This document shows, one piece after another, positions 1 through 22,500 of a DNA stretch of 64,000 nt; positions within the stretch are counted from its first letter, which is position 1, and each line of letters starts with the position of its first letter. Origin of the DNA: Bolinopsis microptera (Eukaryota; Ctenophora; Tentaculata; Lobata; Bolinopsidae); the NCBI RefSeq assembly GCF_026151205.1, contig NC_087077.1:4712001-4776000 (forward strand), in the 5' to 3' direction. A program made the position numbers and the translations under genes. The notes under the pieces were generated by a model. That model was not told the DNA's origin. It made no database searches and saw nothing but the letters and a program-made list of their open reading frames with translations.

Positions 1-33
1 AAACTGGGTGATACAGTCACCAAAAAAAAATAC

Positions 34-127
34 TAAGTATGATAAGTTAATAAATTAAATGTGGTCTATAAAACTACCACTAAGTATAATAGGTCAATAA
101 ATTAAAAGTGGTTTATAAAACTACCAC
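34..127. repeat. Two tandem copies of a 47-bp unit in the LINE 3' region
   Basis: Positions 34-80 and 81-127 are about 87% identical and both end in ATAAAACTACCAC. The pair lies just downstream of ORF2, so it is probably part of the 3' UTR, where LINEs often carry short tandem units recognised by their reverse transcriptase (inference). Confidence 0.8.
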
Positions 128-262
128 TGTGGGAACCCCTTCTCCAGTTAAAACATGTCAGTCATGTGCAAAATCAATCAGAATGGTAAGGTGGTAAAAA
201 AGGGAATATCTTTTCGATACATCAATTATATATGCCTCAGATTTAAAAGAATTAGAAGTTAC

Positions 263-3238
263 TTAGTTATCGGCGACTATGATTGCAGTGTAAAATTTGT
301 CATATGAATTGTCGACGGTATAATTAGGGTCTGTTGTTATAGATGATAGTAGCTGTTTCTTATACGAATCACTAAAGCTTTTAACATCGGGCAGATTTCG
401 TAGATCTGTTGGAACATTATTCCAACATTTTGCCCCCAAGTATTGAAAGTTTTTATGTGATGTTGATCTATTGACATAAAGGTTGCAGCTTTCGCCGCTC
501 CTACTACCTCCTGATATGTAACTAAATTTGTTCATAAAGTTTGTAGGACAATTGTCATGGATGATTCTAAACATATAATTTGACAGATGGAGTTGTCGTC
601 TAAGATGGAGTGGTAACCATTTCATGTCTCTATAAACATTAAGGCTGCTCTCTGTTTTTGGAACGTTGAGAGCTATTTTGGCTACCTTTTTGTACAGAGT
701 GTCAAGTTCAGCAAGTTTTGTCTTGCCAGCTCTACAATAGATCGTGTCTAAATAATCGAATTGTGGCAACATGAGTGCATTGGCAAACATTTTCCTATAT
801 TTAATGGGTAGCAGTGCTTTACTTCTATACATGGCACCAATTCTCTTCATGACCTTCCTAATAATATAATCTACATGGCTTTTGAAGTTTAATTTACTAT
901 CTAGAATGAGGCCAAGATATTTTGTCTCTTTGCACTCCTTGATTGTGAAAGTTACCTCATTACAATCAATGGTTATTTCATCATGTTGGTCAACAGAATC
1001 AAACAATAGGAATTCAGTCTTCTTTTCATTGAGTGATAATTTATTAACACTGAGCCATTTAAAGATTGTCATAAGTTCTATTTTCATGTTTATAAATGTG
1101 CTTCTGCAGGTTTGATCAAAGAATAGTGCACCATCATCTGCAAATAGATAGGGCTTAGATAGGTTACAGGCATAAATGATGTCATTTATGAAGATACTAA
1201 ATAATATAGGCCCAATGATGCTTCCTTGTGGTACACCACTCAGAACTTCTAAAAATGAGCTTAGATTGCCATTGATCCTAGTGCATTGATATCTACAAGA
1301 TAAGAAGTTCTTAAACCAGGTTAAAGCAATGCCACCAATTCCATAATATGCCAATTTTTGAAGCAATATTTCATGATTCACTGTGTCAAAGGCCTTCTTA
1401 AGATCAAGAAAGATGATTCCTGGTTTATAAGACTTAGATTTACTCATATATATTTCGTCCATCAGATCGTACATCAGATAAGTTGTGGAGTGATTTTTCC
1501 GAAAGCCATATTGATGCCGGATGAAAAGTTTGTTCTCTTCCATGTAATCAGTGAGTTGCTTGCCGACAAAGTATTCTATAAGTTTTCCTACAAGTGGAAG
1601 GATGGATATTGGCCTGTAATTATTAGGATCATCTTTCATTCCTGCCTTATGGATGGGAGTTACTCTAGCTTTTTTACAAAGGGTTGGTACAACACCTGTA
1701 TTAAGGCTCAGATTGACAATGTGGGTCAGTGGCTCAACTATGTGTGGTACAGCTTGCTTAAGTAAAAATAGAGGCACATTGTCATATGAGGCCTTGTCAT
1801 TCTTGAGCGTTTCGACATACATTAGGATATCAGTTTCATTTATTTCTTGGAATCTATCAAATGAGATATTAGAAGTTCTAGGAGGTAAAAAATCAGTAAA
1901 ACTAACTCTTTCAATATTGGGGGCCTGATTTTGTAATCTTGATCCAACATTTGCAAAATGAAAGTTAAATAGCTCAGGATCATTCTCATTGATAGTTTGA
2001 CAATTAGTTGTACCAGGGGTCATATTTGATGCCAGTTTGATAGTTTTCCATATCCCTTTAAGATCATTCTTGGCACTTTTAACTTGTAGATCATCGATTA
2101 CATTAGCCTTTTTGCAGGTTTTAGCTAATTTATTTCTAATATTTCTCTGAATCTTGTAGCAATCCCAGGCCTCATTACACTTTATACATTTGCTACATGT
2201 ACCACATTTATTGCAATTTCCATTGTCTCTCTTATCCTTCTTTTTACGGAATTTCTTTAGAAGAAAATGTGTATGATTAATGGCATATAAAAGTTCAGTA
2301 GAAGGTTTATGTATGAACTTTTCATGCCTTTCTATGGTCTTGCAAGGGAAGAAGGTTGCATATGCCTGTTCAATATGATGACAAAGGCCAGCTGTGATAG
2401 CTTCAACATCTGTACTTTCCAATAGTGGACTGTAATCAGAACAGGTGTCTAGATAGTCTAAGAATTGTTTAACATTACGTTTACAATGATTTCTAATTTC
2501 AACCTTATCAAATTTAGGAGCTATAGGTACTTTACAATCTATCTCACACATAATAGCTTGATGATCTCCAATACGTTCATCAAGAACAGAAGATTGGACA
2601 AAATCTGCATAACAGTTAGTGAATATTACATCAATAGTAGTCTGGGTAACATTGTCTCCACGTTTAGCAACTCTAGTTATCCCTTGAATGGTTTGAACTA
2701 GATTGTAACATCTCAAGGTCATATCTAATTTTTTGTACTGGGTGGATGAGATATTATTCTGGTCAATGTTTATATCCCCAATCCAGATAACCTTTTTCCC
2801 ATTCAATTTTTTCATGCAAAAATGAATGTATTCAATAAAGTTATCAACACTGCAATAATTTCCAGAGCGATAGAAGCAGCAAACATTGATCTTGCTATTC
2901 TTAAGCTTCACCCATAATGCTTCAATGTTATCAAGCTTACTATCCATAACTAATTCTGTGTAAGCTAGTTTTTTGTTTATCATTAAGCCATAACCACCCC
3001 TAGAACTGTTTGGCCTGTCGCATCGCATAAGGTTGAAGGAGGAAGGAATATTTATGGTGTCTGTGTCAATAGTATCATTAAGATTCATCTCATTTAGGGA
3101 AAGTATGTCTAATTTATGATCTCTAATAAGTTGGGAAAGTTCATTACTTTTAGCTAAATTGAGAAGCCCTCCTTGAATGTTACAATGACCAATGCAGAGG
3201 TTGTGAAACCTATCAGCTGCATTATTAAAATTTGTCAT
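263..3238 (-). CDS. LINE ORF2: APE endonuclease and reverse transcriptase
   Basis: A 991-residue polyprotein that nicks target DNA and copies the element RNA there. Residues about 10-230 form an apurinic/apyrimidinic-type endonuclease: an N-terminal Asn in HCNIQGG, a catalytic Glu in SLNEMN, IGDIN in the middle and GDHQAI at the end. A cysteine-rich stretch CNKCGTCSKCIKCNEAWDC follows near residue 345, an unusual placement between endonuclease and RT. The RT domain (about 500-790) has the fingers motif VTPIHKAG, the GVPQGSIIGPILFSIFIND block and the catalytic FADD box. The C-terminal part (KWLPLHLRRQ, then PTDLRNLPD near the end) is typical of CR1/L2/Crack-type LINEs. There is no RNase H. The start is the first ATG after ORF1. 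The frame is uninterrupted. Confidence 0.96.
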   Translation of the reverse strand: MTNFNNAADRFHNLCIGHCNIQGGLLNLAKSNELSQLIRDHKLDILSLNEMNLNDTIDTDTINIPSSFNLMRCDRPNSSRGGYGLMINKKLAYTELVMDSKLDNIEALWVKLKNSKINVCCFYRSGNYCSVDNFIEYIHFCMKKLNGKKVIWIGDINIDQNNISSTQYKKLDMTLRCYNLVQTIQGITRVAKRGDNVTQTTIDVIFTNCYADFVQSSVLDERIGDHQAIMCEIDCKVPIAPKFDKVEIRNHCKRNVKQFLDYLDTCSDYSPLLESTDVEAITAGLCHHIEQAYATFFPCKTIERHEKFIHKPSTELLYAINHTHFLLKKFRKKKDKRDNGNCNKCGTCSKCIKCNEAWDCYKIQRNIRNKLAKTCKKANVIDDLQVKSAKNDLKGIWKTIKLASNMTPGTTNCQTINENDPELFNFHFANVGSRLQNQAPNIERVSFTDFLPPRTSNISFDRFQEINETDILMYVETLKNDKASYDNVPLFLLKQAVPHIVEPLTHIVNLSLNTGVVPTLCKKARVTPIHKAGMKDDPNNYRPISILPLVGKLIEYFVGKQLTDYMEENKLFIRHQYGFRKNHSTTYLMYDLMDEIYMSKSKSYKPGIIFLDLKKAFDTVNHEILLQKLAYYGIGGIALTWFKNFLSCRYQCTRINGNLSSFLEVLSGVPQGSIIGPILFSIFINDIIYACNLSKPYLFADDGALFFDQTCRSTFINMKIELMTIFKWLSVNKLSLNEKKTEFLLFDSVDQHDEITIDCNEVTFTIKECKETKYLGLILDSKLNFKSHVDYIIRKVMKRIGAMYRSKALLPIKYRKMFANALMLPQFDYLDTIYCRAGKTKLAELDTLYKKVAKIALNVPKTESSLNVYRDMKWLPLHLRRQLHLSNYMFRIIHDNCPTNFMNKFSYISGGSRSGESCNLYVNRSTSHKNFQYLGAKCWNNVPTDLRNLPDVKSFSDSYKKQLLSSITTDPNYTVDNSYDKFYTAIIVADN

Positions 3239-3394
3239 CTTGTGAATCTTATTAATTCACAATGGAATGAATAAAAGTTGTAAAGTTGTGTTTAAACTAA
3301 AAAAACAGAATAAAAGCAGGTTGTATTTGTCTGGATGTCGTACTGTAAAAATAAAACTGATGGTAGGAGTGTTATGTCAGTATTCAGCAGTATT

Positions 3395-5047
3395 CTAATG
3401 GTGTGCATGATACTTCAAGTGCCTTGCTAATTTAACTATGCCATAATCATTGAGATGGACATTATCCTCTCCATAACTACTAAAAAATGACGATTTTCTA
3501 AAGCCTTTCTTATCACTAAACAAGAAACGATTTGTCTCGGTTGAGAGCAGTTTTACATAGGTGTATTTTCTTTGCAGATTTGATATACACTCATTGATAT
3601 CAGTTATAACCTTGTTTCTGGAGAAACTCTCCCGAGGTAATAAGTTAACAATTTTAATATCAGCTCCAGGTGCCCACTTGTGAAGGAAAAGTACAAGTTT
3701 TTCAATACAATTGTTTGTAAAGTCAAGAGCTCTAGCATCACCAGAAAAACTATCAGGGCACAGAAGTTTAGTCCTCATGTTGCGAGGGCTGTTCAGGATA
3801 GAGTCCACGTCATTTGTACCACACATAAGTACAATGCTTTTCACATTATTGGTATTAAGAGTGTCTTTTCTTACATCTGATTGAAACCGTTCATTGATTG
3901 CATTGGCTGTGGCACCAGGGTAGCTGAATACATGTGCCTCATGATGTTTGGACGATAGCTTTTCTCCCTCTAATTTGGAGAACATACTAGAGCTAATGTA
4001 GACACACGAAGATTTACCAGAATGTTCTATTGATCTAGTCTTAGGGGCCGAGGGTTCGGTGTTCTTAACTTGACTGGAAACATCAGACAGAGTAGATAAG
4101 GTTGCGCTGCCATCAATTAGGCGCAGAGTAATGCTTATTCTCATGGTTTCAGACTTGTCCTGGATGAGGCTGTGTTCAAAGCTGGTCTGGGATTGTCTGG
4201 TCATATTCATTATGTCACCATGGGAGAGGGTGAGGTCAGCAATATGAGCTCTAAGTTTGGATCTGAAGCTTAGGACTCTAGTAGCCCCTAAAGAGATGGT
4301 GGAGATCATGGAGCCTGGTGAAATTGACCTCTCGTCATCCGAGTGAAAGGGAATTCCTTGCTGACCATTTCTATACTTGGTAATCATAGCACTATTGAAT
4401 TTCAATTTTGGGAACTGTGAGCGTAAGCGTTCTAAAATAGACTTTAGGTATGGATTGTCTGCTACTGGCCTTGTGTTATGAAAGCCTCCATTGTAAGCGT
4501 AGGGAAAGTCCCCGTAATATGCAACTGCCCTATTCTCAAACTTATGAGTATAGTGGGTTTCTATATCTAACTTGGCAGTGTCAACAAACTGAAAAACTCC
4601 TCGACTCAAATCTTGGTATGGATTGATAGAGTTGGTCACATCATTGTCACCATTTACAGAGTGTTTGGGATTTTCCAAATTGATAATTTCTGCTGAATGT
4701 TCACTGTCTTCTGCTAATTTGGATAGCTCTTGGGTTAACTCAGAAACAAGATGCGAGGATGACCTATTACTGAGGGGAACATTGATAGACTGTTCACAGT
4801 GATCAGGTACCTGGGGCAACACAGGGATAAGTGAACCATCGCTGAGGGGAACTTTGAGTGCACTGTCACTTTCTGATAATTGTTTATAGAGAAAAGAAAT
4901 TTGCCGACGAAGACTATCATTCTCTCTTAATAGAGTTAAACAATTTGAACATTTATCAGTAGGACAAGAGCCGTTGCTGGGGAATTTAACAGAATTCCCT
5001 CGATATCTCAGATTGTAATGTCTTGAGCCAACTGGTATTCTAGACAT
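3395..5047 (-). CDS. LINE ORF1: AlkB-like dioxygenase plus SGNH esterase
   Basis: A 550-residue ORF1 product. Residues 28-60 have a CxxxxCxxC cluster (CPTDKCSNC) and a short heptad-like helix. Residues about 150-312 match the AlkB family of 2-oxoglutarate/Fe(II) dioxygenases: FHSDDE supplies His235 and Asp237, FEHSL supplies the distal His292, and RISITLR (303-309) is the RxxxxxR motif that binds 2-oxoglutarate and substrate. AlkB enzymes remove methyl groups from nucleic acid bases. Residues about 348-550 match an SGNH hydrolase, a known ORF1 module in CR1-type LINEs: Ser354 in ISSSM (the usual Gly-Asp before Ser is Ser-Ser), a Gly in SYPGAT, GTND with Asn412, and a final DNVHLN supplying Asp and His. 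Demethylation of element RNA or cDNA is inference. Esterase activity is uncertain because of the altered first block. Confidence 0.92.
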   Translation of the reverse strand: MSRIPVGSRHYNLRYRGNSVKFPSNGSCPTDKCSNCLTLLRENDSLRRQISFLYKQLSESDSALKVPLSDGSLIPVLPQVPDHCEQSINVPLSNRSSSHLVSELTQELSKLAEDSEHSAEIINLENPKHSVNGDNDVTNSINPYQDLSRGVFQFVDTAKLDIETHYTHKFENRAVAYYGDFPYAYNGGFHNTRPVADNPYLKSILERLRSQFPKLKFNSAMITKYRNGQQGIPFHSDDERSISPGSMISTISLGATRVLSFRSKLRAHIADLTLSHGDIMNMTRQSQTSFEHSLIQDKSETMRISITLRLIDGSATLSTLSDVSSQVKNTEPSAPKTRSIEHSGKSSCVYISSSMFSKLEGEKLSSKHHEAHVFSYPGATANAINERFQSDVRKDTLNTNNVKSIVLMCGTNDVDSILNSPRNMRTKLLCPDSFSGDARALDFTNNCIEKLVLFLHKWAPGADIKIVNLLPRESFSRNKVITDINECISNLQRKYTYVKLLSTETNRFLFSDKKGFRKSSFFSSYGEDNVHLNDYGIVKLARHLKYHAHH

Positions 5048-5300
5048 AGTTTATCACAAAAAGATGCTACTGTTCGAAATTTAGTTAATGATTACAGTAC
5101 CTTTGTAGCACTCCGGAGGATAAGGATAAGTGATGTCTGATAATCTTTAGGTGATAGATGGGAGTAAACTGCTTTAAAAACCGATGTCTGATAGTCCTTA
5201 GGATGTCTTTAAGATAACTTTATCGTGCAACAACCATTTACATTGACATACAACCTGTAATGGTCGTTACATTTACCGAGGCATTAGTTCCCACTGGGGG

Positions 5301-6849
5301 TCCTCAATAAATGTAATAGATTTGTAGTGTTGTAATTAGTTTAAAACTAAAAACGATAGATGGGTCTCATGTTTGGTCATTGGTGTCCACCTTTTTTCCT
5401 CGGTACCCTCTTAGAGCAATAAAAGTTGTTTTCAACATTGCAAATTTTATCCTCGTTCTCACATGCACTAAATAACATTTAAAATTAAAAGTGTTTTAGT
5501 ATAATGTCTCTGTTGATATGAATAGGGAGTTTGAATAGGTAATAAGTATCATAGCACAGCAACAATCATTTAACAGCACTTGTTCGTCCATTAAAACCAA
5601 ATTATTTGACTTTTTAGAATAAAACCAGCCCACCTCATCATGGTTGCAATTCCTCAAAATTGATCAGTCCATGACGCTTGTTTTAATGTAATAAAGGAAG
5701 GATAAAATTATTATGTCAAATACCCTGTCAGAACTCAAGTTGACTCAGAGGGCTTTATCATTGCGGGTTTAAATAATGGCGGGTTAAAATATGGCGTAGT
5801 TTCCGAAAAACTGCCAAATTTAAACCGCTATAATTAAACGAACTAAGGTAGGTACCCTTGATAGTATATAATCTTTGCTTTACTAGTAAAGCAAAGATTT
5901 TAATACATAATGTATTAAAGGAAGTGATTTCTCTCCGTGGAGACGAAGTGCAAGAAAGAACTTCGTTAATATTAGAGAGTGGGGGGGGGGGGGGGGATTT
6001 AGGGGGTGCCAAATCGTCATATGAATATTGGACAATTTTGAAAAACTTAAATAAAACACTAGCTAAACTGTGCGTTTTGTTCTAGAGATTTTTTCGAGAT
6101 TCTACTGGCTTATTCTCTAAAATCACCTGATTTGTCCAATTTAACGTTTCCAATATGAGGGGGAAGGGGTGCCAACAGGGGGTGCTTCTTTGGCAGGGGG
6201 GTGTCAACATGCAATGTTATGACTTATGCCATTGCCATCTAAAGATTGAGCACTTGTTTGGGGCGACTGCGGCTGCATACTATCATTACTGACTTGTTAA
6301 TTTCATAATAAACGTCAGCTAACGCTCAAGTGCTCTTAATTTTACACTCAAGAGCCATGCAATTGAACTGAACCCATGCATGTTAAGCCCTATTTCGGGA
6401 ATGAAATGGCCGCAGTAATTGGGGTTGGCTATAAATTGGGGCTTGGTATATCAAGCCTCAAAGTTTTACTGTACTATGATTGATACAAGGGGAAATAAGA
6501 TATCTGAATGGGGATTATCAAATTAGACATTGACATTTTTTAAAAGGGAAAGTAAATTGATTTTTAGTAGTATGAAAGGTTCTGAAAGATTATACCCAGA
6601 CTTAAACAAATATTATTATCAAAGTTTATTTACTAGGCACTAGAATGTGAGATCTGGTCATGATATAGAGGGTGAATGGAGTGGGGTTCAGGATGAATTC
6701 TGAAGACTCAACAGCCCCTAACAGCCAATTTACTTTTCACAGGTAGCTGCTGATTGATATTGTTTTATTGATATACTTTACTGACCTGCAAGAAAGTATT
6801 CATCCTGTTTCTTCATTTGCTTTGACTGTAAACAACAAAAATGTTCCAG
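5301..6849. other. Spacer between LINE and NEURL2-like gene
   Basis: No convincing coding exon was found. It holds the probable 5' end of the LINE, a GCGGGTTTAAAT / ATTTAAACCGC inverted pair (about 5762-5836), two palindromes (5870-5917), a poly-G run (5981-5996) and GGGGGTG-rich sequence to 6210. The missing first exon of the NEURL2-like gene is probably here or further upstream, but no donor with the required phase could be chosen confidently. Confidence 0.5.
5870..5917. repeat. Two adjacent perfect palindromes
   Basis: Positions 5870-5899 form a perfect 30-bp palindrome centred on ACTAGT. Immediately after it, 5901-5917 (TAATACATAATGTATTA) is a second palindrome around a single central base. 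No loop, tract of T or gene boundary suggests a transcription terminator. They may be remnants of a foldback element. Confidence 0.85.
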
Positions 6850-19586: not shown

Positions 19587-22500
19587 TTATCTTTTCATCT
19601 TTCGTTTTTTCTCCCTCTCCTCTTCGGCGAGAATCTTTTTCAGCTCGTCGGCATCTTCCTTCTTTGCTAAACGTGCACTGAAAATTACACGCTATAATAA
19701 AATTCATTCACGTTTAATGGCATCATACTAAAGTATCAATATTAAATACTCATTGCTGTTCATTAAATACAAAAACAGTTGCCTTGTAACTCCAGTCAAT
19801 CGTATAGATTATGGATGTAGAAGTAACCAGTAATAGTGATTATGCAACTAATCCACTAATAGGCTAACTAATAGAAAACTAATAGGCTAACTAATAGGCT
19901 AACTAATAGGCTAACTAATAGGCTAACTAATAGACTAACTAATAGGCTAACTAATAGGCTAACTAATAGACTAACTAATAGGCTAACTAATAGACTAACT
20001 AATAGGCTAACTAATAGGCTAACTAATAGGCTAACTAATAGGCTAACTAATAGGCTAACATACCTTCTAGCCTCCTCCTGAGCAATAGTCCTGTAGTCTG
20101 TCTCCATGTTACGACAATCATCCTCCTCGTCTCTATACTTCCTCTTGTCATACCCAAATATATTCCTGGTGAATAATCCCCAATGCATAAACCATTAATT
20201 AATGTTAATACCTACTTCTTGAACTTTAATATTTCCTTTAATTATACAGTGTTAAAATGTGAATATTTAACGAACCTGACAGCCTTCGACACATCTATGT
20301 CCTCACCATCACTCACAACAAAATCATCCAGGTCGTCGTCCATGTACGGGTTAGCGTGCATCTTCTGAAGAGGAAATGTTAAGAATGCGCCCTTATCTAA
20401 TATCTCCTCTCTCATTAATCTATTATTGATTATTAGAAAACAGTACTTACCTCCTGTCTCTTTAACTATTATAATTCAGATATTATACTTTTAAGTTAAC
20501 AAGACAGGTACATTTTGTTCCAATCGTTCAAATTCATTCATAATCAATTGATTGATCTGATAGTCTAAATCTGCCCATAATAAGCTTGCCACTAGTGACT
20601 TTAACTTTGAAATAGACGACGGCATTTGTAGAAAGAAAACCAAAATTTGCAGTTACATCAAAGTTATTTCAAAATTCAAATTAGGTCAAAACACTTTAAA
20701 AAATGCCTGAACAAGCATATTTTTTGTTAAAAAAGACTACCTCTAAAATGTATTCCTGCTTTAGATACTAATCTCAATGAGTGTAACCTCAACTCTTGTT
20801 GAATGTTTATTTACAGTTCCTATTGCTCAAGCGGAGTCCCTGTTGTCTCCCTCTTTATAAAAAAAGCAAACACAGATGTAATGATCAACACACCTTGCAT
20901 TACAACTATAACAAATACAGGATTCTCCTCGTACGCATAATGTATGGCAAAGGAAGCAGTAATACTTGAGATGCTGTAGCACCCGCCTAGAATACAATTA
21001 GTGAAAGACCTGACTGATGTAGGAAAAGATTCGCCAGCAATTACAAATATTAACCAGCTCATAACGGCTAAAGCTCCCCTGGTGATTAACAAAACGGTCA
21101 AGATAAAGTCTGTGCCCACACAAATGTAAAGTAGGGATAACAACAATGTGGGAAATACAGAGGTGAAAATAGTGAGTTTTATTCTCCCAATCCAGTTAAC
21201 GAAGAGTAGAGCTAGAAGAATACTGAAGGGTTCAGCTAGACCAAGAACGCCGAGATCAAACAGGACGGCGTTATCAAATGTGCAAGACTCCTCCTCTGTA
21301 TAGGTACTTGAAGAACAATATCCCTCATTCATGAAGCGAGGGGCCGCATAAAGTATGCACATGTAAGCAAACTGACCGGTAAAATTCACACATACCAGGA
21401 TCCAGAAATCAGAAGCATAGCCTGTTTCTTGTATTACTTGATAGCTCTGACAAAACGTACTGATCTCTTGTTCAGCATGGGGATCCTCAGTTATCCTCAG
21501 ATTCTCAGTTTGTTCTCCGGTACAATTTAATTTGGACAAAATCTCTATAGTTTTCAGAGCCCCACTTACTTTCCCAACTTGAACATCGTGTCTTGGAGAT
21601 TCTCGGATCAAGATGAGTATGATCAAGAAAGGAGAACAGAACAAAGCTAGGGCTATAAGAAACCCTCGCCACCCAAGTGGCTCTATCGTTACGTACGCCA
21701 GTATGCTACTAAAAGCAGTTCCAATCCCCCAACCCAGACCATTGGAAGCCAGTCCGAGAGCTCTGTATTTAGTAGTTGGAATTTCAGCGGAGTATGCAAT
21801 GGCAGGGCCGAACCCGATACCAGAGCTCGCTCCGATCACAGCCCTGCAGATAAGGAGTTGCCACAATTGCGTGCACATACCTGACAGAACCCCTGCTAAC
21901 ATGGCAACTAGAGTTGTGACTATCAGTACTGGCCTTCTTCCGAGAGTGTCTCCAAGATTTGAGAAACAAATGCTAAAGATTGAAGAGAAGACCATGCCAG
22001 TTACTTGCAGGACAGACATTGAAAATGTTGACATTTCCCACTCACAGCGCACCATCAGACTGACTATTGTCATTACTGATATTTCAGCACCGACCGTTAT
22101 CATGACTCCATAGGGCCCCAAAGCGTACAGAATCGTCCCAAAACCACAACCAACACGTTCTATGGCCTCTCCAACAGTCACAAACTCGGTGGAGGTGGAG
22201 GTAGCAGGAGTGTTTGCTGTTGCTGTGAGGCGGGTTTTCTCGCTTTCTTTTGATTTCAGTTCCATAACAGTCTGAACTATAACCTTAAACATGTAGGTAA
22301 CGTTCAGATATTTTAATTGACTTGTTAATAACGAATAAACATTAAGATTAACCAGATTTTCTCTGACAAGTGTCGTGCATTACAGCCAGAGAACTTTAAA
22401 AGAATTTTTCTAGTTTTAACATAATATGTGATAGAGCTGCTGGAGACGACCGTCGAACAAGTTGGGGAAAACCGTATAAAAATCTGACATTGCGTTCCTG

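Follow-up and report, generated by a model that had tools for sequence, protein, structure and literature searches.

The window analysed here is a 64,000-nucleotide stretch of contig NC_087077.1 of the ctenophore Bolinopsis microptera (positions 4,712,001 to 4,776,000 of the forward strand). Its minus strand carries an intact LINE with both ORFs open, the parts of which are listed in Table 1. ORF1 runs from ATG to TAG over 550 codons without a break, and ORF2 gives Pfam matches to Exo_endo_phos (E 7e-7) and RVT_1 (E 3e-36). The 5′ boundary is common to many copies of the element, whose similarity to the window ends at ~5353-5342 (upstream positions 1195-1206 of the copies), and the 3′ end was placed from the window sequence alone. 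Elsewhere in the window, a separate 490-aa ORF (20820-22292, minus strand) resembles an SLC22-like organic-cation membrane transporter.

Table 1. Features of the LINE, in window positions.
Feature	Position	Strand	Basis
Whole LINE, ~5.3 kb	20..5353	−	5′ end from copies; 3′ end approximate, ~20-60, near the window edge
5′ UTR, ~300 bases	5048..5353	−	Copy boundary
ORF1, 550 aa: N-terminal CxxC/coil, AlkB, linker, SGNH	3395..5047	−	ORF, Pfam, alignments
KCxxC followed by predicted coil, ORF1 residues 32-59	4871..4954	−	Alignment of families
AlkB (2OG/Fe(II) dioxygenase) domain, ORF1 residues 170-312	4112..4540	−	Pfam, profile to ALKBH3, fold
His235-Ser-Asp237-Asp238-Glu239: two iron ligands, and Glu239 at the AlkB-Asp135 position	4331..4345	−	Alignments
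His292, third iron ligand	4172..4174	−	Alignments
Arg303-x5-Arg309, 2-oxoglutarate binding motif	4121..4141	−	Alignments
SGNH esterase domain, ORF1 residues 346-546	3410..4012	−	Pfam; profile matches 2hsj, 4c1b
Ser354, nucleophile of SGNH block I (SSS-M instead of GDS)	3986..3988	−	Alignments
Asn412, SGNH block III (GTN)	3812..3814	−	Alignments
Asp528-x-x-His531, SGNH block V	3455..3466	−	Alignments
ORF1-ORF2 spacer, 156 bases, ORF1 stop to ORF2 ATG	3239..3394	−	ORF positions
Inferred recombination breakpoint, sister families A/B	3030..3180	−	Sliding comparison with L071
ORF2, 991 aa, endonuclease and reverse transcriptase	263..3238	−	Pfam
3′ UTR with two copies of inverted repeat GTGGTAGTTTTATARACCAC	20..262	−	Sequence

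The element is repeated in the genome. Searches were run over the 264.65 Mb assembly, and all match counts given below are lower bounds. At the DNA level, at least 43 matches were detected, mostly 97-100% identical to the window, and ORF2 gave 46 matches, with frames mostly open. Full-length ORFs of subfamily A1 differ from the window at 0 to 10 of 1653 bases. Among the matches listed, both ORFs are open in at least 15 elements of family A, at a constant spacing, and in 8 elements of the sister family B. This LINE family is young and has been active recently. A first-pass annotation, made from the window sequence, had described the unbroken ORF1 and named in it His235, Asp237, His292, Arg303, Arg309, Ser354, Asn412 and a DxxH box (Asp528/His531); all of these were found where it had placed them. 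It had also proposed that its reading would fall if no AlkB match was obtained, or if copies disrupted these residues: an AlkB match was obtained, and the AlkB and SGNH catalytic residues are intact in 30 of the 30 copies examined, wherever the positions are present. A single aberrant copy or a fused pseudogene is ruled out by the multiple copies with open ORFs and conserved residues.

The AlkB assignment was made at several levels. Pfam 2OG-FeII_Oxy_2 matched ORF1 residues 183-309 with an E of 4.1e-19, and a phmmer search of the PDB with ORF1 returned human ALKBH2 at 4e-13. With a profile of the transposon AlkBs, the matches were ALKBH3 (4e-29), ALKBH2 (2e-23), E. coli AlkB (3e-10), ALKBH8 (1e-9), ALKBH1 (6e-4) and ALKBH5 (0.03), and FTO was absent among the matches listed. 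Residues 171-312 were predicted to adopt the AlkB fold with a pLDDT of about 81-91, from an alignment that drew on 16 viral-contig AlkB loci found by an AlkB-domain scan, which also served as tree outgroups. The predicted domain matched ALKBH2/3 with a Foldseek E of 2e-13 and a VIA Z of 22.4 (rmsd 1.9-2.1 Å), and ALKBH5 with a Z of 17.8; overall, m6A-eraser folds scored 17-18, versus 22 for ALKBH2/3. Judged by profile and predicted fold, the ORF1 AlkB is of the ALKBH3/ALKBH2 type and not of the ALKBH5/FTO type. Chance similarity or a motif artefact is ruled out by the E-values, the fold and the conservation among copies. The view of the first-pass annotation that this LINE ORF1 joins an AlkB to an SGNH module thus stands, by Pfam and by profile, and for AlkB by predicted fold as well, with ORF2 lying 156 bases downstream.

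The active site is conserved well beyond these copies. The iron triad His235/Asp237/His292 is unchanged in all copies and families examined, Arg303 and Arg309 of the RxxxxxR motif are invariant across the families aligned, and both sets hold over families that are only 22-37% identical in AlkB. From these residues, the domain looks catalytically competent. Four residues past the first iron histidine, every aligned family has a Glu (Glu239), as does human ALKBH2; at this position E. coli AlkB has Asp135, which gives selectivity for 1-meA/3-meC (PMC2800194). A difference was seen at residue 223, where both A and B have Thr and most relatives Asn (LINRY to MITKY), so that cofactor or substrate handling may differ.

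On the C-terminal part of ORF1, Pfam Lipase_GDSL_2 matched with an E of 1.6e-4, weaker than AlkB, and an SGNH family profile matched the PAF-acetylhydrolase-like protein 2hsj at 1.7e-7 and the zebrafish ZfL2-1 ORF1 esterase 4c1b at 0.005. The SGNH blocks were found at Ser354, Gly378, Asn412 and Asp528/His531, and are invariant in alignments A1 and A4. Folded alone from a single sequence, the domain reached a pLDDT of 45 and matched GDSL esterases and PAF-AH at E 3e-3 or worse, which is suggestive only. The module is therefore called a putative SGNH esterase from its motifs and weak profiles. At the other end of ORF1, K32, C33, C36, L39, L46, R48 and L53 are invariant in alignment A1, Cys33 and Cys36 being retained in families 31-33% identical, and a helix at residues 44-59 is present in the predicted model with low confidence.

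The first-pass annotation had asked for other LINEs with this pair of domains, and these exist in the same genome. The AlkB Pfam model gave at least 151 genome matches, mostly outside families A and B, and groups of AlkB ORFs of 593, 676 and 707 aa were among them. Families A, B, C, D, L052 and F were read directly. In families C and D (L061 and L049), ORF1 is 31-33% identical to that of the window over the whole protein, and is followed by an endonuclease ~50% identical to the window's. At L052, on the minus strand, a PHD-AlkB-SGNH ORF1 (L052:901-2658) is followed by a PHD-endonuclease ORF2 (L052:3-953); PHD fingers are thus present in both ORFs of this LINE. Family F has AlkB-coil-SGNH ORFs of ~780-850 aa, then an EN-RT ORF2 (12 AlkB/ORF2 pairs matched by position), and its RT is 26% identical to that of the window. 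A further group of 630 aa matches L061 at ~44% over the AlkB-SGNH span, as read from the search match alone. The AlkB and SGNH pair therefore recurs across several deeply diverged LINE families of one genome. A tree unites the transposon AlkBs with weak support (45/46), so that neither a single origin of all of them nor several captures is shown. Among the viral contigs, no relative with the full ORF1 was found.

The genome also contains abundant repeat SGNH ORFs of 478-523 aa with no AlkB nearby among the matches listed, which argues, provisionally, that AlkB was added to an esterase-ORF1 background. Other arrangements of the two domains were encountered. Eleven low-copy loci have the reversed order, with SGNH ahead of AlkB, and their ORFs reach 3388 aa; in these loci (L043, L053, L057, L060, L062, L067 and L068 among them) SGNH is followed by a Pro/Ala-rich stretch, AlkB and tandem repeats. 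At L067, no ORF longer than 110 aa was found in the 6 kb downstream (L069), so that this locus is not an obvious LINE, and the SGNH-first giant ORFs are possibly a host gene family made of the same two domains. At L041, an ALKBH3-like ORF of 296 aa (1063-1950) is followed on the same strand, after a gap of ~700 bases, by a separate SGNH ORF (2662-3438).

Comparison of the window with family B (L071) revealed two very different histories for the two ORFs. ORF2 is 98% identical between them (dS 0.095), whereas ORF1 is 66% identical, with a dS above 1. In a sliding comparison, DNA identity was 52-83% on the ORF1 side and 97-99% on the ORF2 side, with a sharp step at window ~3030-3180, near the ORF2 start. 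Divergence so much greater in ORF1 than in ORF2, with a step at this place, indicates that ORF1 was exchanged by recombination. AlkB-SGNH was present in the incoming ORF1 as well. Within ORF1, amino-acid identity between A and B is 85% for AlkB, 66% for SGNH and 39% for the N-terminus. The dN/dS of AlkB is 0.087 between A and B, which makes AlkB the most constrained segment of ORF1, and 0.11-0.27 between A1 and A2, where synonymous counts are few. AlkB is under strong purifying selection.

What would a LINE do with such a domain? We propose that the AlkB of ORF1p rides on the element RNP and removes methyl groups of the Watson-Crick face that block reverse transcriptase, the esterase acting separately, and we give this account about an even chance of being right. 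ORF1p would be a modular RNP protein, made of a zinc-finger/coil-like N-terminus, an ALKBH2/3-type AlkB and a type IV-like SGNH domain. On the RNP, AlkB would oxidatively strip alkyl lesions such as m1A and m3C from the element RNA template or from the nascent cDNA, and because these methyl lesions stop reverse transcriptase, their removal would yield full-length target-primed copies. A LINE must copy its whole RNA, so that an RNP-bound eraser of m1A and m3C would be a gain. The R2 LINE reverse transcriptase of OTTR is hindered by m1A, and capture improves after treatment with AlkB (PMC12140624). The esterase would most likely serve the association of the RNP with membranes or lipids, as proposed for ZfL2-1, which has an active esterase that binds acidic lipids (PMC3905857). 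The choice of m1A/m3C over m6A as the probable substrate class comes from the ALKBH3/2 relatives and the acidic Glu239, and an ALKBH2/3-like sequence may be compatible with m6A or another substrate too. Against the proposal, the SGNH repeats described above as lacking a nearby AlkB also thrive. To our knowledge, LINEs elsewhere have no AlkB-type domain, which means that AlkB is not generally needed for retrotransposition.

Other functions were weighed. The first-pass annotation had suggested that the element strips m6A, its RNA thereby escaping silencing by host RNA methylation. MT-A70 (m6A-type) methyltransferase genes are indeed present in the host, and the AlkB of an orchid Ty3/Gypsy element has proven m6A demethylase activity (PMC9289625). 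The domain nevertheless groups with ALKBH3/2 by profile and fold (Z 22 versus 17-18), reaches ALKBH5 only at E 0.03, and retains the acidic residue of m1A/m3C selectivity. Moreover, in human cells L1 is helped by METTL3 and repressed by ALKBH5 (PMC7873242), which weakens a simple m6A-escape story. We do not favour m6A erasure, and consider it unlikely; the other option offered in the same annotation, m1A or alkyl damage of the cDNA, would fit the sequence better. A related idea is that AlkB acts on DNA, either fixing alkylation in single-stranded cDNA or in the nicked target, or erasing a mark such as 6mA from new insertions, which would thus avoid silencing. ALKBH2 and ALKBH3, the nearest folds, are both DNA repairers, and an RNP-bound ORF1p would presumably sit near the cDNA during target-primed synthesis, but ALKBH3, the best profile match, acts on RNA too, and the ORF1 proteins of LINEs bind chiefly element RNA; action on DNA also seems improbable to us.

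We are more doubtful still of a reading in which the chemistry of AlkB on the nucleic acid of the element is irrelevant, the domain being retained to bind nucleic acids or for structural reasons, or having host RNAs or proteins as its targets in trans. Non-enzymatic RNA-binding domains are used by other ORF1 classes, and the protein persists despite an SGNH nucleophile block that reads SSS and not GDS. However, a module that served for binding alone would not be expected to keep all three iron ligands and the two 2OG arginines invariant across families as diverged as those above. Returning to demethylation on the RNP, we tentatively extend it: AlkB-SGNH may be an ORF1 class of its own in this lineage, passed as a unit from one LINE clade to other, unrelated ones, and the demethylation that it encodes, most likely directed at lesions that halt reverse transcriptase, may work in the retrotransposition cycle. 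This wider picture is plausible, though we would stop short of calling it probable. In any case, the RNP protein of active LINEs contains a likely RNA/DNA dealkylase, which selection has kept in several families and which is no isolated oddity. Two questions become open to direct test: whether retrotransposition is limited by chemical methylation of the template RNA, and whether mobile elements evolve a countermeasure of their own. The domain would also be nature's counterpart to the laboratory practice of adding AlkB to aid reverse transcriptases, including a LINE RT, on methylated RNA.

Among known systems, the closest are the type IV (esterase) ORF1s of CR1/L2-group LINEs such as ZfL2-1, in which an SGNH ORF1 precedes an EN-RT ORF2 (PMC3905857, PMC4120745), and whose zinc-finger/leucine-zipper segment the N-terminal Cys/coil of the window resembles. 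Judged on ORF1, the window esterase would be of this CR1/L2 type IV kind, with EN and RT adjoining downstream. Unlike type IV ORF1s, the ORF1 described here has an AlkB dioxygenase between coil and esterase. AlkB is unmentioned in the ZfL2-1 and ORF1-class papers (PMC3905857, PMC4120745), and the described LINE ORF1 classes do not include it (PMC4120745), in agreement with the first-pass annotation, which knew of no standard class with both domains. In the open-access literature, no report of AlkB in a LINE was found, though an earlier notice may exist elsewhere, for example in Repbase Reports. Eukaryotic AlkB proteins are reportedly covered by Iyer, Zhang and Aravind, 2016 (BioEssays). The domain resembles human ALKBH3/ALKBH2 in profile, in predicted fold and in the HxDDE...H...RxxxxxR residues (~24-33% identity), but these are free-standing host repair enzymes, whereas the AlkB here is joined to an esterase within the ORF1 of a retrotransposon. 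The orchid Ty3/Gypsy element is likewise a retrotransposon with an AlkB-family domain, whose iron ligands are intact; it differs in being of LTR type, with an ALKBH5-like AlkB in a separate ORF, demonstrated m6A activity and a narrow, recent lineage (PMC9289625). Plant plus-strand RNA viruses, mainly Flexiviridae, are also selfish RNA-based elements with AlkB in a multi-domain protein, but there it is a replicase polyprotein, without reverse transcription and without esterase (PMC544882). AlkB was thus already known in plant RNA viruses and in one orchid LTR element; what appears to be new here is its addition, under selection, to a LINE ORF1 of the esterase type, and its recurrence across LINE families of one genome.
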